From a virus, in IMG/VR virus record IMGVR_UViG_3300042197_001295, positions 17,108-81,107 of that record: DNA of 64,000 bases; one strand, written 5' to 3'. Positions 19,340 to 62,625 of this stretch are shown here, one piece after another. Each line of letters starts with the position of its first letter. Positions within the stretch are counted from its first letter, which is position 1. The translations under genes and the position numbers were made by a program. The notes under the pieces are model-generated. The model saw only the letters and a list, made by a program, of their open reading frames with translations. It had not been told where the DNA came from and did not search any database.

Positions 19340-19951
19340 GTGGAAGATAAAATAAAAAATAAAACAGACACTTGGTTGGAAAGTGTTCTTCTCAAAGAGA
19401 ATGAACACCAGAATCATGAATTGTCAATGAAGAATTCTTTAGAAAAAAATAAAATACCGTTTGAAGGAGAAATTTCTAAACCAGTATCAACATCTGAATT
19501 ATTAGGAAAAGCATTGGAAAGGGCAGACCAATTTCACCAAATAATTCTACCTGCCGTCGAAGAAATGGCATATGCAGTCAGAGAAGATGCCGATGCAGAA
19601 AAAGGAAAAGCATTAGCAAATATGATAATGGCAGGACAAAAATGTCTCCAAACTTATGCAGATATTTATACAAAATTTGTTGAAGTTGAAGGTAGATTAG
19701 AATCGGAAAAATTAAAAGCAGAAGCAATAAAAAGCGTGAAAATAGGAGATACTATAAATATACAACAAAACAATGTTAGTGTAACTACTCCGGCAGAATT
19801 AATGAGAAAAATTACAGAAGCAATGTCTTCTGGAACTTTCGATGTTGATAAATTGAAAATGCTCAAAGAGCAAAAAAGAAAATTAGACAGAGTTACTAAT
19901 AATTCCGATAAAGATAATGATATTAACATAGAAATTCAAAAAGATGTCTAA
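19340..19951 (+). CDS. 16: Probable small terminase subunit (gp16-like)
   Basis: A 203-residue, mostly helical protein overlapping the large terminase gene by eight bases, the usual 16-17 arrangement. Central helices (ELLGKALERADQFHQIILPA, then ANMIMAGQKCLQTYADIYTK) suit the oligomerising coiled coil of T4-type small terminases, and the ends are charged and disordered. Such proteins recognise concatemeric DNA and stimulate the gp17 ATPase. Translation starts at GTG. Sequence similarity is weak, so the call rests mainly on position and predicted structure. Confidence 0.6.
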   Translation: MEDKIKNKTDTWLESVLLKENEHQNHELSMKNSLEKNKIPFEGEISKPVSTSELLGKALERADQFHQIILPAVEEMAYAVREDADAEKGKALANMIMAGQKCLQTYADIYTKFVEVEGRLESEKLKAEAIKSVKIGDTINIQQNNVSVTTPAELMRKITEAMSSGTFDVDKLKMLKEQKRKLDRVTNNSDKDNDINIEIQKDV

Positions 19952-22301
19952 TAAAAAACCAAAATCAAAAAAAGTTTCTGAAAAACAAGAAGAAAACGAA
20001 GAAGAATCTCATGAATTGATCATTCCTGAAAATGATATTTCTATACATGAAGTTTCTAAAATAAAATTTGATGGAGATGATGAATCAAAAGGTCTTCGTC
20101 ATGGAATGTCTGGTGTTCCAGCAGCAGGAAAAGCAAAATATAGATTAGACGAAAACGATATGTTGGAATTGATGTTAATCAAAACTGACATTTTTTATTG
20201 GTTAGAAAATTATTATTATATAACATTTATTCATCCATCTAAAAAAAGCAAAAAAATACAAAATGGCATAGAAGTAGAAATACCAATTAAAGTCACAGAA
20301 CCAATTGCATTGTATAATTTTCAACGTGAAATAATAAGAAAATTTATGAATAAACAGCACATGGTTACTGTTACTTCAAGACAGTTGGGGAAAGACTTGG
20401 CTTTAAATACACCAATCCCAACTCCTAATGGGTGGACTACGATGGGTGAATTAAAACAAGGAGATGTTATTTTTGACGAAAAAGGAAATCCAACAACTGT
20501 TCTTATAACACACCCTATTAAATACGATGCCGAAACATATAAAATAACATTTAGTACAGGCGAAACCATTATAGCCAATGCCGATCATAATTGGTGGACA
20601 CAAAGTAAAAAAGAAAAAAGAAAAAAAATATTAGGTTCTATGAAAACAACAAAACAAATCATAGATAGCAAAGACGAACATAGAATATATTTTCAACCGG
20701 ATAATGAAGAATTTATAAAACAATACAACTACAAAGTAAACAAAAGAAATAAATATATCTATATTACTAACATAGAACCAACAGATTCGGTTCCTATGCG
20801 TTGTATTACGGTGGATTCGCCAAATAGCCTTTATCTATGTGGTAAGACAATGATTCCTACGCATAACACTACAATACTTGTCGCATTAGCAATTTATCAA
20901 GCATGTTTTAATGAAAAAAATACAGTTTTAGTTTATTCTCACATGGAATCGTCTGCAAAGATGATAGTTGGGAGAATTAAAGAAGCATATAGATTAATGC
21001 CAAACCACTTAAAACCTGCGGTTAAAACTTGGGGCGCACTGGAAATTGAATTTGAAAATGGTAGCGTTATAAAAGCCGGACCAACTTCAATAAAATCAGG
21101 ACACGGGGAAACTATTGATTTGTTATTGCTTGACGAGTTTGATTATGTTCAGGCAGAAGTTCAAGAAGGGTTTATTTTGGGTATTATGCCCACAATTTCA
21201 ACTTCCAGAGGAAAAATATTTATCTGTAGTTCTGCAAATTCTACCAGAGGATATTTTTATAAATATTTCCAACAAGCACAAAAGGGTGATTCCGAATGGA
21301 ATTGGCACATGGCATATTGGTATGACGTTCCGGGTAGAGGTGAAGAATTTAAACAAAAAGCAATATCGGAATGTGCAGGAGATATGAGAATATTTAGAAA
21401 AGCATATGAATGTGATTTCGGAGCAACAGAAGATGTTGGTGTTGGACTAATGGCAGAACACGGTTTTAATGTTTTAAACAAAAAAAGAAAATCTGAAGCA
21501 CTAAAGGGATATGAATTTTTCGGAGAAGCATGTAAATTTTACGAACATCCGAATCAAGATAATATATATATTATGGGAGTTGATCCTGCTGAAGGAATAG
21601 GGGGCGATAATAGTGTTATTCAAGTTTTCGATTTTACGGATTTAAGCGACATAAAACAAGTAGCAGAATATGCTTATAACAAAATACATCCGTTGGAATT
21701 TTCTAATGTCATTTTAAAAATGGCAAAAATATTTGGAAGTCCTTGGATAGCAATCGAAAGAGACAAATCGGGAGCAATGATAATAGAAAATTTAATTAGA
21801 GAACACAAATACCCTAAACTTGTACATTGGGGTATGAAAAACGACAAGAAAAATTATTATCAAAGATATGGTATAAATTGTCAAGGTAATTCTAAAAAAG
21901 TAGCAATTACACACATGAGATATTATTTAGATACGGTTCATGCGGTAACAATTAATTCGCCAGATTGTTTAGACGAATTGATACATTTTAAAAGATTGCC
22001 AAACGGAACATGGCAAGGTGTGGAAAAAAATGATGATAGAATTACAAGTATGATATGGGCATTTAGCACATTACACGAAGAAGTCATAAACCAATGTTTT
22101 GAAGTTTTAGATAAAGATATAAACGGAAAACCATTGAAAGTTAGAGATAAAATAAAAATAAATTCTTGGCAAAAAATAGAATCTGGTAGTTTTTTTAGAC
22201 CAATACCATCAATTAAATCAAACAATAATATATTTTCTATACATTCGGAAGATAAAAGATTAAATTATGGGAATTTTTCTGGATGGAAATTGGAAAAATA
22301 G
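19944..22301 (+). CDS. 17: Large terminase (T4 gp17-like) interrupted by an intein
   Basis: The precursor has 785 residues; removing the 158-residue intein leaves 627, close to the 610 of T4 gp17. The ATPase domain shows SRQLGK then TT (Walker A, split by the intein) and DLLLLDEFDYV (Walker B). The nuclease domain shows GVDPAEGIGGDN, IAIERDKSG and DDRITSMIWAF, the acidic residues of the RNase H-like fold. It packages DNA by ATP-driven translocation and cuts headful ends. No packaging is expected unless the intein splices, because the Walker A Lys and Thr are separated. The N-terminus is charged and poorly conserved. Confidence 0.9.
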   Translation: MSNKKPKSKKVSEKQEENEEESHELIIPENDISIHEVSKIKFDGDDESKGLRHGMSGVPAAGKAKYRLDENDMLELMLIKTDIFYWLENYYYITFIHPSKKSKKIQNGIEVEIPIKVTEPIALYNFQREIIRKFMNKQHMVTVTSRQLGKDLALNTPIPTPNGWTTMGELKQGDVIFDEKGNPTTVLITHPIKYDAETYKITFSTGETIIANADHNWWTQSKKEKRKKILGSMKTTKQIIDSKDEHRIYFQPDNEEFIKQYNYKVNKRNKYIYITNIEPTDSVPMRCITVDSPNSLYLCGKTMIPTHNTTILVALAIYQACFNEKNTVLVYSHMESSAKMIVGRIKEAYRLMPNHLKPAVKTWGALEIEFENGSVIKAGPTSIKSGHGETIDLLLLDEFDYVQAEVQEGFILGIMPTISTSRGKIFICSSANSTRGYFYKYFQQAQKGDSEWNWHMAYWYDVPGRGEEFKQKAISECAGDMRIFRKAYECDFGATEDVGVGLMAEHGFNVLNKKRKSEALKGYEFFGEACKFYEHPNQDNIYIMGVDPAEGIGGDNSVIQVFDFTDLSDIKQVAEYAYNKIHPLEFSNVILKMAKIFGSPWIAIERDKSGAMIIENLIREHKYPKLVHWGMKNDKKNYYQRYGINCQGNSKKVAITHMRYYLDTVHAVTINSPDCLDELIHFKRLPNGTWQGVEKNDDRITSMIWAFSTLHEEVINQCFEVLDKDINGKPLKVRDKIKINSWQKIESGSFFRPIPSIKSNNNIFSIHSEDKRLNYGNFSGWKLEK
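20394..20867 (+). mobile_element. Class 3 mini-intein in the terminase Walker A motif
   Basis: A 158-residue in-frame insertion between the Walker A Lys and Thr. Block A is DLALNTPIPTPNGW with Asp where Cys or Ser is usual. Block B is NADHNWW, placing Trp at B:12. Block F is MRCITVDSP with Cys at F:4. Block G is IPTHN followed by Thr, with Thr at G:5. Trp, Cys and Thr at these positions define class 3 inteins, in which the block F Cys starts splicing, so the absent Cys1 is expected. No endonuclease domain is present. Confidence 0.85.
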
Positions 22302-26509: not shown

Positions 26510-29500
26510 ATGAAATCTAATAAAAAATGGCCATGTATAGGAAGAGTTATACAAGCTAACTTAAACGGAACGGTAAATGTTGCAATTCCCGGTTGGAACA
26601 TGGGAAATGGTCCTGAAGAAACTGCTTTGTTTTATTCTGAATGGACAACAGATCCAAGAACCATGAAAGCTTGGCAAGATATAATTGCTACCGGAAATTC
26701 GCTTGCATTTGTTATGTCTCCTTTAAACGGAGGGGCAGGACCATCATATTATGGAACATCTGGTGGTGGTTATAGTGCCGATCCTAATAGTGATTATAGA
26801 GCACGGAACGGAGGAGACCCATTTTCTAATACAAATGGCGATCCCGGAATGCCAACAGATGCTAATGGTAATATATTAATAGAAGATTTTTATGCGGCAG
26901 CATTACAAAAAATTCAAAATTCTTCATTAAATGGGTTTTCGCCAGAAGATGGTGGAAATTACGGTATAAACGGAACTCCACAATCATGGGCATCTTTTAT
27001 GACAAGAATGGCATGGGCGGAATCTGGTACCACTATCGGAAATAAAGGATATGTTAGACCGTACATTGTTGGTGATGAGGGTAGATCTTATGGTGTTTTA
27101 CAATTTGGTATAGGCCAAGGAAACACTGGAATAACACCACAAAATTGGAGAAACGCCCCTAGCCAAATTGATGCTTTTATACGATTTACAGAATCATGGG
27201 TTAAAAATGATAGTAAGTATATAAATCCTCCTTTTCCAGTTAAAGCAAAACGATATAAAGGTTGGGGAGGACTTGGATCGACATTTGGGCCGATACGAAC
27301 AAATGTCGTAAATACAAAACCGTTACCTCCAAACTACAAACAAAGAGGAGAATATGCAGATGTAGTAGCACAAAGTACAGAAAATAATAGAAAGTCTAGA
27401 CTTACATATGACAATAATCAAACGGAAACAGAAAAATATTTTTCTGATTTGGCTAACAATAAGGCCTCTTGCAACGAAAGTAATTGTGGAGAAGCAATAG
27501 GAGAACAGTTTTTCATAAAACCGGGAGACGTTTATAGTCATAATAAAATATACGATGCTAAATTTGATACTTCTAGCGACACTAGAGCTTCGTCTTCATA
27601 TGATGAAACACGATTAAAAAAATTACTGGATGGTTCAGATCAATTTATAATTTTTAGAAGAACATTAGAAAATTCTAATGATCACGGAGTATTTAAAACC
27701 GGAAGAGTTATATCAAGCGGAACTTTTGACGGAAAACCTTGGGTAAAGATAAGAGCAGTTGGTGCCTATCAAGGAAATGGTAAACTTTATACTTCGCGAG
27801 ACAGAGTATTAACAACAGCAAGAGGATATGGGGGTCAAAGTGTTCCGGGTGTAGGCAATGTATATACTCTTGAAAGAGTTCATAATTTCTCAGATATAAA
27901 ACCAAATAGATTAAACTATCCGAATACTTATAGCGCAAAAGCAGAACCGTCAATAGAAAGTGCCAATTCAACTTCTAATTCTTCCGGTCCAACCCCAATG
28001 TCACCAAACTTTGCGGCGCATGTTGAACATTTCCCGGCAGCAAATGGATCATTTTCCCTTCCTTCGTTGGGGTCATATGTTATTTTAAATTTATTAGACG
28101 GTATGACAATTCCTATAGTCATGGGATATTTCATGGGAGCAGCAGAATCTACAAATGTTCTTGGAAGTTTTCCAGTAAATGAAACAGATGGAACTCCAGC
28201 AGGTGTTGCTGTGGAATCAAATCAATTAGCAAATGATAATTTATTTGCTTCGCCCGCATTCAATACAAATGTTCTTGGAAGTTTTCTAGTAAATGAAACA
28301 GATGGAACTTCAGCAGGTGTTGCTTCGGAATCAAATCAATTAGCAAATAATACTTTATTTGCTCCGCCCGAATTCTATACAAATGAAGCGCTGTATACGA
28401 GTGCAACGAGTTCTTTTTCTGATTATCTTGTAATAGATTATAATCAACGGAACGTAGGTACTACCAACGGAAACCATATATTATATAATACGCTAAAAGG
28501 TTTTTTTTCTTTCAGTGGCATAACAGGAGAAGAAAAAATGATTTTGAAAGGTGCGCTCCAAAATATTCTAAGATTAGATAACGATGGATGGCAGCAATAT
28601 GCTCAAAATTATTTTTCTAGAGTTCCCGGTCTTGCAAATAGCACATTCGGAACAATATATGAAAATATAAAAAACTCAAAAAATACTAGTAACGAAGGAT
28701 TTTCTACAAACGAATCTTCTAACAGAATAGCACATATTGCACAACAAACAATGTTAGATATTTATGCACAGGCACATCAAATTGCTTCTCAATTTGATAT
28801 TAATCGTTTAAATGGGCAACATCCAGATTGTCCAGTATGTAAAAAAGGAACATATCAAAGTGAATCTTTTACTTCTGTGGGAGGAATTTCTTCGTTCCCG
28901 CCTCAAGCAAGTTCTTCTGGAGAAGTGAATAGTGGTCTTATTAACAGCGTAATAAAATTTGGATACAAAATCTTTAAACCAGATACCGCAGGATGTTATA
29001 CTTGTAGAGGTACTGGACGTTCTCCTGCATCCGAAGGCGGAAGATACCCTAATATGGTATCTCAAAAACAAAAAGATATGGAAAAAATTTATGAAGACAA
29101 TAAAGAAATTTTAAAACAAATGAGAGATACAATTAATAACAGTGGGGGACATGGAAATTATGCACATGCTGGAAATATATATATTGGATCAGGACTTGCT
29201 TCTTTTGATTTTGATTTCCCCTCGTTTAGAGTTGACGAAGTAGGTAAATTATCTGTTGTGGGTTTAACTTCAGGAATAAATGGATTAAATCCGAATGCTA
29301 TTGCTGTTCCTTTAGTAGAACCTGTTGAGGTTCCTGATCCGGGCTTCGGAAATGTAAGTATAGTTGGTAATAGAAGCATTTCTATTAATTCTGGATCTGG
29401 CGGATTCAATTTATCTACAACTGGAAACGTAAATCAAATCGGAGCAATTTACAAAGCAGATTATGTGTCTGCTTCTTTTACTGGAAAAAAGGGAATTATG

Positions 29501-30232
29501 GTAGATGGGGGGTCTGGCGGAACTATTATTAGAGGTGATAATATAAAATTAAGCCCTTCTGATAATGGTAAAATTGGTGGTAAACATGTTATGATAGATG
29601 GACATGCGTCTGTAAATGACAATTTACTTGTTGCTGGAGGGGCAGCAATCAACGGAAATTTATCAGTTCAGTCAATGACCATGCCCGGAAAAGTAGCAAT
29701 GACAGAATATGAATATGATCCAACTAATCCAAAAGAAGCAAATCCAACCAGAGGTGTAATAAATGGAATGGTTCAATCCCCATTAGCTACTGGTTTTATA
29801 AAAATATATAATACGCCAGAAGCTGCTGTTGCTGGCAAACCAACGGGGGCACCATTAGTAATTATGGAAGGAGCAGAATATTATTTTCGCATAGAAGAAG
29901 CAAGAATGAAAATAGAACCAGTTGGAGGAGAAACTGAAGGAGATTATCCCGTTATTATGCAACCACACGCACATCCAATGATTGTTCCTAATATCGATAT
30001 TGTTAAAGGACCAAGAAAAGTTCCGGTTCTTTTGGCAGATGGAAGTTATAAAGAAACAGAATTAAGCCCAACTCAAGCAGTTTATGCTGCTGGCATGGTC
30101 GATTCTAATAACGGAAGACTTGTTGCATATTCAACTCCCAGTTCACTATTGCCATATTCACTACATCAAAAAACATCAGGAGACGAAAAATTTGATACTA
30201 CTGGTGGACCATCTTTTAGCGTTGCAGTATAA
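26510..30232 (+). CDS. Large baseplate hub/spike protein (T4 gp5-like) with lysozyme-like domain
   Basis: This 1240-residue protein starts with an OB-fold-like strand set (IGRVIQANLNGTVNVAIPGW). Residues about 160-215 (MAWAESGTTIGNKG, then EGRSYGVLQFGIGQGNTG) resemble a lytic-transglycosylase/lysozyme site with catalytic Glu. Around 515-545, GSFSLPSLGSYVILNLLDGM resembles the gp5/VgrG OB fold. Two Cys clusters (HPDCPVCKKG, GCYTCRGTGR) near 770-830 look like a DnaJ-type zinc site. Gly/Ser/Ile-rich repeats from about 940 to 1060 suggest a beta-helical spike. A 38-residue tandem duplication lies near residue 550-625. It should puncture the cell envelope at infection. Confidence 0.65.
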   Translation: MKSNKKWPCIGRVIQANLNGTVNVAIPGWNMGNGPEETALFYSEWTTDPRTMKAWQDIIATGNSLAFVMSPLNGGAGPSYYGTSGGGYSADPNSDYRARNGGDPFSNTNGDPGMPTDANGNILIEDFYAAALQKIQNSSLNGFSPEDGGNYGINGTPQSWASFMTRMAWAESGTTIGNKGYVRPYIVGDEGRSYGVLQFGIGQGNTGITPQNWRNAPSQIDAFIRFTESWVKNDSKYINPPFPVKAKRYKGWGGLGSTFGPIRTNVVNTKPLPPNYKQRGEYADVVAQSTENNRKSRLTYDNNQTETEKYFSDLANNKASCNESNCGEAIGEQFFIKPGDVYSHNKIYDAKFDTSSDTRASSSYDETRLKKLLDGSDQFIIFRRTLENSNDHGVFKTGRVISSGTFDGKPWVKIRAVGAYQGNGKLYTSRDRVLTTARGYGGQSVPGVGNVYTLERVHNFSDIKPNRLNYPNTYSAKAEPSIESANSTSNSSGPTPMSPNFAAHVEHFPAANGSFSLPSLGSYVILNLLDGMTIPIVMGYFMGAAESTNVLGSFPVNETDGTPAGVAVESNQLANDNLFASPAFNTNVLGSFLVNETDGTSAGVASESNQLANNTLFAPPEFYTNEALYTSATSSFSDYLVIDYNQRNVGTTNGNHILYNTLKGFFSFSGITGEEKMILKGALQNILRLDNDGWQQYAQNYFSRVPGLANSTFGTIYENIKNSKNTSNEGFSTNESSNRIAHIAQQTMLDIYAQAHQIASQFDINRLNGQHPDCPVCKKGTYQSESFTSVGGISSFPPQASSSGEVNSGLINSVIKFGYKIFKPDTAGCYTCRGTGRSPASEGGRYPNMVSQKQKDMEKIYEDNKEILKQMRDTINNSGGHGNYAHAGNIYIGSGLASFDFDFPSFRVDEVGKLSVVGLTSGINGLNPNAIAVPLVEPVEVPDPGFGNVSIVGNRSISINSGSGGFNLSTTGNVNQIGAIYKADYVSASFTGKKGIMVDGGSGGTIIRGDNIKLSPSDNGKIGGKHVMIDGHASVNDNLLVAGGAAINGNLSVQSMTMPGKVAMTEYEYDPTNPKEANPTRGVINGMVQSPLATGFIKIYNTPEAAVAGKPTGAPLVIMEGAEYYFRIEEARMKIEPVGGETEGDYPVIMQPHAHPMIVPNIDIVKGPRKVPVLLADGSYKETELSPTQAVYAAGMVDSNNGRLVAYSTPSSLLPYSLHQKTSGDEKFDTTGGPSFSVAV
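28151..28378 (+). repeat. 114-base tandem duplication inside the hub gene
   Basis: Two adjacent 114-base units encode 38-residue repeats (NVLGSF, VNETDGT, AGVA, ESNQLAN, LFA in both). They differ at roughly a tenth of positions. The frame is kept, so the protein gains one extra unit. Confidence 0.85.
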
Positions 30233-48744: not shown

Positions 48745-51165
48745 TTAACCCTGTATAGTATCGAAATCAAAATTAAAATTTGACGAAGAAACAGAATTAA
48801 TCATATTTTCCATTTCGGAATTAAAGTCTGTCATTTTCATATTTCTATAATCTATAGATAGTTTACCTCCTTGACCTTTAACACTGAAACGAGATTTCAC
48901 AACTCTATAATTAATCCAAGAACCCTCTTTTGCATTTTGATCTTGCCAAAAGTTTATTTGTGCATCTGCCGTTTGCGGAATTCCTTGAGATTCCAAAGTA
49001 GCAGACATATCAGGATCTTCTTGTTTTAAAGAATTTTTAATATCTAATTGTGTCGGAGACAATATAGGACATTCCCAAATATACGAAAGACTTCTGACGT
49101 TAGCAGCAAGATCTTTTTGATCTTTATACATGTTATAACCTTTGCTTTGATTTCCTGAATTTGGAATCATTAAAGAATGCATATCCAAAATAATAATATC
49201 TGGAACAAATCCGTCTACTCTTTTAAGCTGCTTTAAAAAAGATGAATATTGTCTAGGTGTAATTTCATTAGCAGGAAATTGTTTTATATTCAATCTTCCT
49301 TTTTCCAAAGAAGATTTTAATGTTTCAATTTCTTTTCTCAATTCGTCGCTCTTATAATGTAAATTAGACAGTTCGATTCCGGTTATAATAGAAGAAACTC
49401 GTTTTGCCCAATTTTTTTCACTTAATTCAAATGTAGCAACTTGCACTTTTTTGTTTTGTTTTAAACAATTAGTTGCAAGGTTTGCCATTGTTAAAGAATT
49501 GTGCGTAACAATATAGTTTGTTGTTAAATACAAATTATCTTTTGCATTTACTGTTATGCACATCGATTCTTCGTCTGCGGTTTTTTTAATAGAAATTACA
49601 AAATTATCTCCAAATTTTTCAATTACATAATCATTCTTTAATTCTTCGTATATTTTTTTAGAAACTAATATTTCTAAATATGTTTTAGATGCAGAATACA
49701 ACTTACAAGAACATCCTAATGACCATATGATTTTTTGTATTTGTTTAAACAACCAATCATGATTCCATTTTAAATCAAATAAATTTTTATTAATACAAAA
49801 AATTAAGTTTTTTGTATTTTCTTTTAAAAAGAGATCATCTTTGGTATCTAAAATGCCCTTCAAAAGATTAATTTTATCGACTGCTGTATAGTCAATGCAT
49901 TCAACAGGAACATATTTGCTGTAAATTTTGTTATTTTCGACAAATATTTTCTTAAATTTGTCTAGATAAAAATCGTTTTTATCTTCGCTATCGGACAAAA
50001 CATAATGATCCTCTTTATATTCTTTTAAATTATAAACAGTTTTATTTTCAGGAGGAAGTATTGTATTTAAATAATATTTGTCTTGAAAAATTCCGTTTAT
50101 TTGAGAAACGATGTTTTTATCTTTTAAGTGAAAAACTATTTTATCGTCGAGAATAGCTCCAGATGTTAAAAAACACCCAAGAACATAAGGAGGTATTTCT
50201 GGTTTAGAATATGTAAAAATAGGAGAAGAACAAGGTATTTTTATTAAATCTTTGCTAGAATTAAACTTATGAAGAATATTCAAAGTAGTAAGGGTTTCGT
50301 AAATTTCCAAATCTTTATTCCAAACATTCCACAAATGATCTTTACATGCTTTTACTTTTCTTCCGTCCCAAAACGTAATTTCATACGTTTCAACAATTCC
50401 TTGAGGATGAACATGTGTAATTGTGACAGGCGAACCATCCGAACCAAAAACACAATCTCCCGGTTGCAAACTTCCAAAAGCAACAATTCCTTTATATGGA
50501 GTTGGGGTTTGTGTATATAATGGTTGTGCTTTACCTATATTGACGGTTCCGCCAAATACATAGAAAGATACGTCACTAGAACAAAACCCCCCTCCAAGTG
50601 CCTTGTCTAAGCTTGGAAATCCAGAGCTAATAAAATTATCAACTCTTTTTAATTCATCAATGTGTTTTTCTATATTTTCCAGATAAAAAAAGCCTGTATC
50701 TTCTTTTAAGGAAATGCCGAATACTCGGTCCATTTCTTTTTGTATTTGATGTGTATCATAAACCCCATTGGATGTTTTTAATTCAATTTGTTTATCTAAA
50801 ATCTTTTGAATACTTCTTTGTTTTATGTAAACTTCTAGATTTTTTAATAATTCGTCGAAATTAAAAATTTCTCCTTTTGGAATCTTTTTTAATTCTGCTA
50901 AGGTTTTAGCTAAAAACGCATCTTCGTCTTCATTGTTTAATTTTAAAACAATTTCAGAAGCAGTTGGAAAATTATCATAACTTTCATAATAACTTTTAAT
51001 TATAGAAAAAATAGGACGGAAAAAAGAATTAGTCCGCCCTATCATTTCTGGAGTAAGATAATTAATCGCAACATTAGAAAATCTTTCCTTTTTTCTCAAA
51101 AGGAAATGATACATCATTACTGTTTCAAATTTATCTAAGTTAAGTGTATTATTCGTCGTTGTCAT
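48745..51165 (-). CDS. 41: Replicative DNA helicase (DnaB/T4 gp41-like) interrupted by an intein
   Basis: The precursor from ATG has 806 residues; without the intein 462 remain, close to the 475 of T4 gp41. Extein motifs: SGFPSLDKALGGGF before the Walker A, FGGTVNIGK then S (Walker A, split by the intein), ATFELSEKNWAKRV, DIIILDMHSLMIP (Walker B), and SPTQLDIKNS near the DnaB H3 region. It unwinds DNA ahead of the polymerase on the lagging strand. A TTG six codons earlier is possible. The gene overlaps uvsX by 17 bases. Confidence 0.9.
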   Translation of the reverse strand: MTTTNNTLNLDKFETVMMYHFLLRKKERFSNVAINYLTPEMIGRTNSFFRPIFSIIKSYYESYDNFPTASEIVLKLNNEDEDAFLAKTLAELKKIPKGEIFNFDELLKNLEVYIKQRSIQKILDKQIELKTSNGVYDTHQIQKEMDRVFGISLKEDTGFFYLENIEKHIDELKRVDNFISSGFPSLDKALGGGFCSSDVSFYVFGGTVNIGKAQPLYTQTPTPYKGIVAFGSLQPGDCVFGSDGSPVTITHVHPQGIVETYEITFWDGRKVKACKDHLWNVWNKDLEIYETLTTLNILHKFNSSKDLIKIPCSSPIFTYSKPEIPPYVLGCFLTSGAILDDKIVFHLKDKNIVSQINGIFQDKYYLNTILPPENKTVYNLKEYKEDHYVLSDSEDKNDFYLDKFKKIFVENNKIYSKYVPVECIDYTAVDKINLLKGILDTKDDLFLKENTKNLIFCINKNLFDLKWNHDWLFKQIQKIIWSLGCSCKLYSASKTYLEILVSKKIYEELKNDYVIEKFGDNFVISIKKTADEESMCITVNAKDNLYLTTNYIVTHNSLTMANLATNCLKQNKKVQVATFELSEKNWAKRVSSIITGIELSNLHYKSDELRKEIETLKSSLEKGRLNIKQFPANEITPRQYSSFLKQLKRVDGFVPDIIILDMHSLMIPNSGNQSKGYNMYKDQKDLAANVRSLSYIWECPILSPTQLDIKNSLKQEDPDMSATLESQGIPQTADAQINFWQDQNAKEGSWINYRVVKSRFSVKGQGGKLSIDYRNMKMTDFNSEMENMINSVSSSNFNFDFDTIQG
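49498..50529 (-). mobile_element. Class 3 intein with degenerate LAGLIDADG domain in the helicase Walker A motif
   Basis: A 344-residue insertion between Walker A Lys and Ser. Block A is AQPLYTQTPTPYKG with Ala at position 1. Block B has KDHLWNV (Trp at B:12), block F has MCITVNAKDNLYL (Cys at F:4), block G has IVTHN followed by Ser (Thr at G:5): the Trp/Cys/Thr triad of class 3. Between B and F lie two weak LAGLIDADG helices, YVLGCFLTSGAI and LLKGILDTKDD. The first has Ser where the catalytic acid is expected, so homing is probably lost. Confidence 0.85.
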
Positions 51166-52243
51166 CTGGTAATTCGAAATCAACTTTAGTAGAGTCTACA
51201 TCATAGATTCCATTTTGTCCATTGCCACCAATGGAATAATTCGAATAACACCAAGATCGAAATTCTTCATTTTCTAATAAAGAAAGCAAAACATTTTTTG
51301 GAATATTAGAAGAAGTGTAATACTTATCATTATAACCAACCCAAGTTTTTCTTCCATCCAGACCCAATTCCTTACATTTATTTTTTTCTATTTTTTTGAG
51401 GAAATTTGAATGGGTTCCCAGTTCCAGTAATCCAGAACAAGTATCAATACCTTCTTTTTCATGAATATTAATTGATACTTGTAAGTTTTGTTTTACGAAA
51501 CGCGATTTGATTGCAGTTATACAAAATGTTTGTCCAACAACACTATCTCCATCTTTTAATTTTTTACTAGAAGTAAAAAGTATAGTATCGGATGCCAAAT
51601 ATAATTTCTTACCTCCTGCGATCACTTTTTTACTAAACATTTCTTGAGTATCATAATAGTGATTAATTAATAGACAAGGAATGCCCCGTGCCTTTAGTCT
51701 AGGGGTCATAACTCTGGCAAAAGAATTTAATTTTTTTGCTCTGGTCATATCGGTTTTGTCTTCTCCTGCCAAAAGATCATCTGCTTCTTTTTTACTAGAA
51801 GCCATACCAATAGAATCGACAATGATTAAAACTTTATCGTCTAAAGTAGCAGGATAAATGTCATTCATCATCCCATGAGTCAAATCTTCGATACCTTCAA
51901 AAGATTTATATGCAACATCTTCATCTTTTAATCCAAAATTCTTAAAATATTCTGGTGTTGCTCCATGTTCATTTGAATAAAACAATATAACAGGATTTTC
52001 CTTTTCGTGTTTTTTTACAAATGAACTTGCAATTTCTAAACAATATGAAGTTTTAAAAGTAGAACTGTCTCCGACAAATTGAATAATTCCCGGTCTGATT
52101 CCCCCGTTTTTAGGATCACCTCCTAAAATAAGATTCAAAGCAGGAATTCTTGTAGGAACTGGTTCTACGTGAAGAATTTCACATTCGGATACTTTAGAGA
52201 AGCCCGGTTTTTTAAATATTGTATCTTTAAAAATTGTTGTCAT
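51149..52243 (-). CDS. uvsX: RecA-like recombinase (T4 UvsX-like)
   Basis: A 364-residue strand-exchange protein. RIPALNLILGGDP precedes IIQFVGDSSTFKTSYCLEIA, the UvsX-type Walker A (G-x-x-x-x-F-K-T/S). VLIIVDSIGMASSKKEADD is Walker B, and CLLINHYYDTQEMFSKKVIAGG fits the region ending in the DNA-binding loop. The C-terminus is acidic (DFELPDDNDE), as in UvsX/RecA. It would pair single strands with homologous duplex for recombination-dependent replication. It overlaps the helicase gene by 17 bases, as in the T4 uvsX-40-41 neighbourhood. Confidence 0.9.
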   Translation of the reverse strand: MTTIFKDTIFKKPGFSKVSECEILHVEPVPTRIPALNLILGGDPKNGGIRPGIIQFVGDSSTFKTSYCLEIASSFVKKHEKENPVILFYSNEHGATPEYFKNFGLKDEDVAYKSFEGIEDLTHGMMNDIYPATLDDKVLIIVDSIGMASSKKEADDLLAGEDKTDMTRAKKLNSFARVMTPRLKARGIPCLLINHYYDTQEMFSKKVIAGGKKLYLASDTILFTSSKKLKDGDSVVGQTFCITAIKSRFVKQNLQVSINIHEKEGIDTCSGLLELGTHSNFLKKIEKNKCKELGLDGRKTWVGYNDKYYTSSNIPKNVLLSLLENEEFRSWCYSNYSIGGNGQNGIYDVDSTKVDFELPDDNDE

Positions 52244-61307: not shown

Positions 61308-61336
61308 ATAGTATCATATTGATTTTTTGGTGTCAA
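61308..61336 (-). promoter_or_regulatory. Sigma70-type promoter for the GT2/IF-1 unit
   Basis: TTGACA, 17 bases, TACTAT on the minus strand, nine bases before the ATG of the glycosyltransferase. Probably also transcribes IF-1, dUTPase and HAD genes. Confidence 0.65.
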
Positions 61337-62625
61337 TATCCCCAAGAATTAATTTTATTAATTTTTTTCTTAAATTTTGTTTCAACAACAAAATCACGTA
61401 AATTAAAAATTTTAGATTTTTCTGGAATGTAATAATTACATGGACGTGTTTCAGTTAAAAACCAAAAATATTTTTCTGGATGTTTTGGTTGCAATGCTGT
61501 TCCTTGCCCATCTGTTATAATAAAAACAGAATCTGGATGCTGTTTCATTTGATTAACTTCGTTCGCAATAATATCGAATCTTGTCCCACCTCCAACTGGA
61601 ATAGAACAATCTTCGTTTTTATAGATTTGTGTTATATTAGTTAATGTATCATCAAAAACATACACTTTAATATTAAAATATTCTTCTGGAATCATTCTAG
61701 ATGCAGATACAAACATATCAACATATTTTTCACAACTTCCACTAACATCTAAAAATAAACAAATGTTGTTTTTATTTTTTAAAAGTGCATCGTTTTTATT
61801 TTTACCGGGAAATATAAAAGACGAATTACGCATTATGGACGAATATCTTCTATTTTGATAACCCCATTGTGGTTGATTTTTAACTCTTTTGATACTGTAT
61901 CTACACCATTTATCGATAACAGAATACCAAGGTTTTTTCTGAGAAAGATTATTTAACCAATTAATCGTTTTGTTGTTTTGATTGCCGCAAAACGATTGAG
62001 ATTTAATTTCAGATTCTATCTCTTGAGGATCATAAGATTCATATGATTCAAAATATTTTTGAATAAAATCTTGAAAGGTTTCTAATTTTTCTAACCCACT
62101 AATATTTTCCATAGGAAAATACATAATATCACTATTATTATTTTCTTCTGAATTTTTTCTTAGAAGATCGAAATAGTATTCGACGCTTTTATTGTAATGA
62201 TTTTCTATAGGTCCATATTTTTCGGTATCGTGAAACACAGTATCCACCCATGCAATTTTATCTGCTAAATCAGGAGATAAACTGTTTCTTTTTATGTTTA
62301 AAAAATCATTAATGAAATGATTAATATAAACATCTGTTGAGATATTAAATATCTCATATTCGCTTTTATCAAGATCTTTTATTCTCCATAAATGTCCGAA
62401 AAATAAATGACACATTTCATGGCAAATAACAAATACTTTATCTAAATCTGTTTTTGTAGTTTCTTTCCAAAAAGAAGGATTTACATAAAATGTAATTTTA
62501 TTTTCATGTAAACTTACACAAGCAGTTTCTATAGAATTGTTTTCTATAACATTTCCATAACCAACCATTAATTTAAATAATTCATGTTGATCGTAGAAAT
62601 GGTGACGATATTCTTTTATATTCAT
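61333..62625 (-). CDS. VWA-domain protein with metallopeptidase-like domain (DUF2201/CobT-type)
   Basis: A 430-residue protein in two parts. The N-terminal half holds VFVICHEMCHLFFGHLWRIK, an H-E-x-x-H zinc motif with a further His after it. The C-terminal half is a von Willebrand A domain: CLFLDVSGSCEKYVDMFVSA (D-x-S-G-S, MIDAS), PVGGGTRFD (MIDAS Thr) and DSVFIITDGQG (MIDAS Asp). This pairing is known from proteins encoded beside MoxR-type ATPases and resembles the CobT subunit of cobalt chelatase. Its ATG overlaps the stop of the AAA+ gene by one base, so the two probably form one complex. Confidence 0.75.
   Translation of the reverse strand: MNIKEYRHHFYDQHELFKLMVGYGNVIENNSIETACVSLHENKITFYVNPSFWKETTKTDLDKVFVICHEMCHLFFGHLWRIKDLDKSEYEIFNISTDVYINHFINDFLNIKRNSLSPDLADKIAWVDTVFHDTEKYGPIENHYNKSVEYYFDLLRKNSEENNNSDIMYFPMENISGLEKLETFQDFIQKYFESYESYDPQEIESEIKSQSFCGNQNNKTINWLNNLSQKKPWYSVIDKWCRYSIKRVKNQPQWGYQNRRYSSIMRNSSFIFPGKNKNDALLKNKNNICLFLDVSGSCEKYVDMFVSASRMIPEEYFNIKVYVFDDTLTNITQIYKNEDCSIPVGGGTRFDIIANEVNQMKQHPDSVFIITDGQGTALQPKHPEKYFWFLTETRPCNYYIPEKSKIFNLRDFVVETKFKKKINKINSWGY

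Follow-up and report, generated by a model that had tools for sequence, protein, structure and literature searches.

A predicted class 3 mini-intein with aspartate as residue 1 in the Walker A motif of a phage terminase, and covariation of residue 1 with block B:7

Class 3 inteins are defined by Trp at block B:12, Cys at F:4 and Thr at G:5 (the "WCT triad"), and need no nucleophile at residue 1. The paper that gives this definition adds that the residue after the intein (+1) is Ser or Thr in all but one case, and that mutation of Cys F:4 in three class 3 mini-inteins ended all activity (PMC5222942). Of 1701 class 3 inteins counted, 82.5% carry LAGLIDADG motifs (PMC7891396), so the endonuclease-free state is that of a minority. 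Two mini-inteins of known structure, Msm DnaBi1 (6bs8) and Mch DnaB1 (6rix and 6riy), lie in DnaB, begin with Ala1, carry Asp62 at block B:7 and are followed by Ser+1. In Msm DnaBi1, Asp62 lies near Ala1 and may position the scissile amide, and mutation of a B-block Asp raised C-terminal cleavage (PMC6195587, in part). The same position, B:7 (N3:7), is called unconserved in class 3 inteins in PMC7891396. Among mycobacteriophages the large terminase subunit, TerL, is the main intein host, and TerL1-a, which separates the Lys of Walker A from its Thr, is a classic site (PMC5050341, in part).

We analysed a window (the whole 64,000-nucleotide stretch, bases 17108-81107 of the 81,107-base IMG/VR record IMGVR_UViG_3300042197_001295) in which a T4 gp17-like terminase gene is interrupted at that site. 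The features are as follows, with positions counted from the start of the window and slashes marking intein junctions.

19944..22301, plus strand: terminase large subunit gene (T4 gp17-like), 785-residue precursor; matches PHROG terminase families, T4 gp17 in the PDB (3ezk and 3cpe, on the C-extein) and Pfam Terminase_6C above its cut-off.
19944..20393, plus strand: N-extein, last residues ...TSRQLGK, the first half of Walker A; from the empty-site alignment.
20394..20867, plus strand: predicted class 3 mini-intein, 158 residues without an endonuclease domain, precursor residues 151-308; from phmmer, alignment and predicted fold.
20394..20396, plus strand: Asp1; read from the sequence.
20577..20579, plus strand: Asn62, block B:7, which is Asp (DxxH) in most class 3 inteins; from alignment, with PMC6195587 (in part) for Asp62 of Msm DnaBi1.
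20586..20588, plus strand: His65, block B:10; invariant in 29 aligned sequences.
20592..20594, plus strand: Trp67, block B:12, the W of the WCT triad (H-N-W); invariant in the 29, aligned with Trp67 of 6bs8.
20802..20804, plus strand: Cys137, block F:4 (M-R-C-I), the predicted first nucleophile; invariant in the 29, aligned with the catalytic Cys of 6bs8 and 6rix.
20859..20867, plus strand: Thr156-His157-Asn158, block G:5-7 (Thr156 at 20859-20861, Asn158 at 20865-20867); from alignment.
20868..22298, plus strand: C-extein, first residues TTILVA, with Thr+1 (20868-20870) as the Walker A Thr; from the PDB match and the empty-site alignment.

The intein shares its size class, predicted HINT fold, WCT triad and THN end with Msm DnaBi1 and Mch DnaB1, and its insertion after the GK of a P-loop with Msm DnaB-1 (flanks from PMC5222942, in part), but has Asp1, Asn62 and Thr+1 and lies in TerL. 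The mycobacteriophage inteins TerL1-a and TerL1-b also have the large terminase as host, and TerL1-a shares the Lys/Thr position (PMC5050341, in part), but their hosts are of the Terminase_1 family, unlike the one in the window. Minerva gp9 also begins with Asp1, but is inserted one residue further on, after GKG. The TerL inteins of the Clavibacter phages CMP1 and CN1A are alike in Asp1, the WCT triad, a GK/T or GK/S site and a B:7 residue other than Asp; they differ in length (355 and 299 residues against 158), carry Ser at B:7 and form a separate lineage. Two mini-inteins on IMG/VR contigs, L100 and L103, are alike in Asp1, an RQ[VI]GK/D...N/T site, a length of 137 and 141 residues and the lack of an endonuclease, but have Gly at B:7 and fall in a separate tree lineage. 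This class of intein, its occurrence in TerL and the Lys/Thr site are thus already published, and the intein itself is ordinary apart from an uncommon first residue.

Several lines of evidence support the earlier note's proposal that a class 3 mini-intein splits the Walker A motif of this terminase; the reading frame, the coordinates and the residues it named (Asp1, the Trp of H-x-W, the Cys of M-R-C-I, the Thr, the H-N and Thr+1) are confirmed. Alignment to known class 3 inteins, the check it had suggested, returned Msm DnaBi1 (6bs8; E = 4.5e-24) and then Mch DnaB1 (6rix; 3.6e-23) as the top phmmer matches in the PDB, and the W, C, T, H and N residues line up in both. His65, Trp67, Cys137, Thr156 and Asn158 are invariant in an alignment of the intein with 28 relatives (n = 29). 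An AlphaFold2 model built on that alignment (pLDDT 95.1, pTM 0.87) has the HINT fold of class 3 inteins, and a Foldseek search with it placed chains of class 3 DnaB inteins at ranks 1-7, followed by entries for the gp41-1 intein. The match to Pfam Intein_splicing was weak (17.1 bits; cut-off 35.8). With a non-nucleophilic residue 1 (Asp1), Trp at B:12, Cys at F:4, Thr at G:5 and Thr+1, the segment has the residues of class 3, and its 158 residues form a splicing domain with no homing endonuclease domain. An alternative is that splicing is class 2-like, with Thr+1 attacking the N-junction directly and Cys137 dispensable; a non-nucleophilic residue 1 is also a mark of class 2 as defined in PMC5222942. 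Class 2 inteins, however, lack the WCT triad, which is complete here and invariant in the 29 sequences, and together with the inactivity of the three Cys F:4 mutants this makes a class 2-like route scarcely credible.

The insertion site was examined by removing the intein in silico. The resulting SRQLGK/TTILVA can be aligned ungapped across the junction with two intein-free terminases, those of Synechococcus phage ACG-2014e and Acinetobacter phage nACB2 (27-29% identity over 441-458 columns), which read RQTGK/ST and RQAGK/TT where the spliced product would read SRQLGK/TT. The insertion parts the Lys of Walker A from its Thr exactly, the position of TerL1-a sites. A mis-set boundary is ruled out, since the empty-site alignment fits an intein bounded by K/D and N/T. 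The N-extein alone had no match in the PDB, and an NCBIfam search gave nothing useful. Taken together, the class 3 residues, the homology and the fold make splicing by way of Cys137, Thr+1 and Asn158 the natural reading. We put at roughly 87% the probability that this is a class 3 mini-intein whose excision is needed before the terminase has an intact P-loop. Because the intein breaks the P-loop, it is fair to suppose, as had been claimed, that the precursor would be unable to bind ATP before splicing.

The terL gene is present once in the 81-kb record, with an open frame through the intein, and in a search of all 81,107 bases the terminase C-extein did not occur a second time. An identical intein is present on a 144-kb IMG/VR contig; the compared stretches (6,474 and 12,511 bases) are 100% identical to the window, so the two contigs may well come from the same virus. 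These observations bear on the possibility that the intein is decayed or cleaves without splicing, the terminase being dead or the contigs derived from defective phage. Neither Asp1 nor Asn62 is as common as Ala1 and Asp62, as decay might produce, and decayed class 3 inteins exist, for example the frame-broken copy in L358. Here, however, there is no stop or frameshift, every catalytic residue is kept, the record has a single terL copy, the second contig holds an identical copy, and Asp1 inteins of the same layout are found in terL of isolated phages; we consider decay very unlikely.

Asp at position 1 had been called unusual even for class 3 inteins, and its rarity is borne out. Residue 1 in an unselected sample of 79 inteins (80 of at least 120 stretches, less L098, a chance match) was Ala in 62, Gly in 6, Gln in 6, Glu in 3, Arg in 1, Ser in 1 and Asp in none; frequencies are taken from this sample only, the other scans having been selected by residue 1. 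Asp1 is nonetheless recurrent, and that it is unique to this intein is ruled out. Besides the window's own virus, the Asp1 scan found contigs L099, L100 (with L102 identical in the stretch read) and L103, a wider Asp/Glu scan added L255, L256, L259 and L262, and Asp is the first residue of the TerL inteins of three phages known as isolates, CMP1, CN1A and Minerva. A tree built with residue 1 left out requires three changes for six Asp1 rows, each of them forced by supported branches, and by this tree Asp1, though rare, arose at least three times separately. A quicker tree requires six changes for ten Asp1 rows, two of them forced.

A search with the window's intein had matches in 372 of 50,697 phage records. 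Some of the loci collected showed other departures from the common pattern. Ten class 3-type TerL inteins, a related group, end in T-S-N instead of T-H-N (L002, L003, L005, L006, L014, L016, L022, L024, L025 and L031); the penultimate Ser is found in 9 of the 193 inteins counted below. At four TerL loci (L003, L005, L016 and L031) a second, class 1-looking intein that starts with Cys lies deeper in the terminase, and in three of these (L003, L005 and L031) the frame ends soon after its start, so that it is possibly split or broken. An intein at L045:1190-2293 (plus strand) combines Cys1 with the full WCT triad. In the bacterial genome G031 (L358 and L365) a terminase-like gene holds a class 3 intein with Gln1 that is a decayed copy, interrupted by a TGA and by a shift of frame.

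The identity of residue 1 covaries with that of B:7. Among 193 class 3-type inteins, B:7 is Asp in 110 of 123 with Ala, Gly, Ser or Arg at residue 1 and in none of 70 with Asp, Glu, Gln, Lys, Pro or Cys, a grouping into small and larger residues that was chosen after the first table was seen. By residue, the first set comprises Ala1 (98/111), Gly1 (9/9), Ser1 (2/2) and Arg1 (1/1), and the second Asp1 (0/10), Glu1 (0/5), Gln1 (0/49), Lys1 (0/3), Pro1 (0/2) and Cys1 (0/1). The count derives from 352 scanned loci, reduced to 240 distinct N-parts, to 213 on removal of near-copies, and to 193 when 20 without a readable C-part were dropped; in three of the 193 the C-end is odd (GKQ, TGN and AGQ), probably through a mis-read by the pattern. 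The scan patterns leave B:7 free: those of the unselected scan and of the scans selected by residue 1 end before it, and one peptide search used pieces of the window's intein, one of which covers its own B:7. The exceptions are the 13 of 111 Ala1 inteins without Asp at B:7, and Arg1, which is paired with Asp at B:7 in L011 but with Cys in L369.

Other measures pointed to the same pair of columns. Mutual information with residue 1 was highest for B:7 among the 107 other columns (0.459 of a maximum of 0.577 nats), followed by position 46 (0.375). Position 46 is basic in 107 of the 110 rows that combine Ala, Gly, Ser or Arg at residue 1 with Asp at B:7, and where residue 1 is larger, Arg occurs at this position in none of 44 rows. 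The trend was the same in 14 readable inteins added later from isolates, plasmids and bacterial genomes, with Asp at B:7 in 7 of 8 against 0 of 6 (Fisher p = 0.005); this count omits later-added loci that the pattern did not match (L358-L365, L367, L370-L372 and L374), and the reading of Pro as the first residue of L373 is less certain than that for the other later-added loci. A Leu1 intein at one of these loci shows the same change at B:7 as Lys1, Pro1 and Gln1.

Kinship alone is reduced as an explanation of this link by masking both columns in the tree and by a correlated-evolution test, in which a model with residue 1 and B:7 dependent was better (LR 47.8, p about 1e-9, n = 167); restricted to Asp versus Ala the result was similar in direction (LR 23.0, p about 1e-4, n = 121). 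Before the masked tree and this test, 26 Gln1/Gly rows were removed to thin that group. Sign tests on independent pairs had too few supported pairs and were not significant, with a median p of 0.5 in an earlier test, where residue 1 was split into Ala versus all others and B:7 was kept in the tree, and of 0.25 and 0.5 on the masked tree. All the trees, built from about 100 columns, are poorly resolved, with many open forks.

We tentatively interpret the covariation as two class 3 N-junction layouts that cannot be mixed, although we would put the full proposal at somewhat below even odds. In one, a small residue 1 (Ala, Gly or Ser) would go with Asp at B:7 and usually a basic residue at 46; in the other, a larger residue 1 (Asp, Glu, Gln or Lys) would be combined with Gly, Ser, Cys or Asn at B:7, Arg46 being absent. 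The bond-orienting carboxylate of Asp1 inteins would have shifted from B:7 to residue 1 on several independent occasions. Inteins that begin with Gln, Lys, Pro or Leu behave similarly, which favours room at B:7 over a moved carboxylate. That Ala1 to Gly abolished splicing of AceL NrdHF, as PMC7891396 states, indicates that residue 1 is not freely variable. A further possibility is that Asp1 is itself catalytic, for instance as a general base or a transient acyl acceptor at the scissile bond. At least three separate gains of Asp1, each without Asp at B:7, might reflect a need for a carboxylate close to the bond, but Gln1, Lys1, Pro1 and Leu1 show the same B:7 change and cannot act in this way, and we think a catalytic Asp1 quite improbable.

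Asp1 probably belongs, then, to an alternative layout of the N-junction and does not signal new chemistry. From the homology with Msm DnaBi1 and Mch DnaB1, we infer that Cys137 would attack the Lys(-1)-Asp1 peptide bond with the aid of His65 and Thr156, that the N-extein would be transferred from Cys137 to Thr+1, that cyclisation of Asn158 would release the intein, and that an ester-to-peptide bond shift would restore SRQLGKTT. Asp1 would be non-nucleophilic throughout. The larger residue 1 would be paired with loss of the B:7 Asp that otherwise lies beside Ala1, so that in this intein a predicted contact between Asp1 and Asn62 would take the place of that between Ala1 and Asp62.

The same genome carries another class 3-type intein.

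49498..50529, minus strand: second class 3-type intein, 344 residues, with Ala1, H65-L-W67, C324, T342-H-N344 and Ser+1; from a protein search.

It is inserted in the Walker A motif (GK/A...THN/S) of a DnaB-like helicase ORF (48745-51183, minus strand). By eye, the region between its blocks B and F resembles a worn LAGLIDADG domain. A scan of the record with Pfam PF14890 for other inteins matched only the TerL intein, below the cut-off. Elsewhere in the window, an ORF at 61333-62625 (minus strand) matches a PHROG of HNH endonucleases and may be a free-standing homing endonuclease, and a 1240-residue ORF flanked by structural genes at 26510-30232 (plus strand) had no match in PHROG or PADLOC.

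With class 3-type inteins in both P-loops, the terminase and the DnaB-like helicase of one phage would both seem to depend on class 3 splicing. This raises the possibility, concerning purpose and not chemistry, that the terminase intein is kept as a switch that delays packaging until conditions are right: the intein breaks the P-loop, a second one does so in the helicase, and splicing of DnaBi1 responds to H2O2 (PMC6195587, in part). The sequence data here give no sign of conditional splicing, however, and a selfish element would also favour the P-loop because the site is conserved. A switch is an unlikely reason for its retention.

What appears to be new is the residue 1-B:7 covariation rule, of which a literature search, with a founding class 3 paper outside its reach, found no published account. 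It is the part of this analysis on which a specialist might act. The role of the B:7 Asp has so far been argued from structure and mutagenesis (PMC6195587, in part), and with the rule a double-mutant test of that role becomes simple. The rule would also guide the choice of residue 1 in class 3 inteins that are used as tools.
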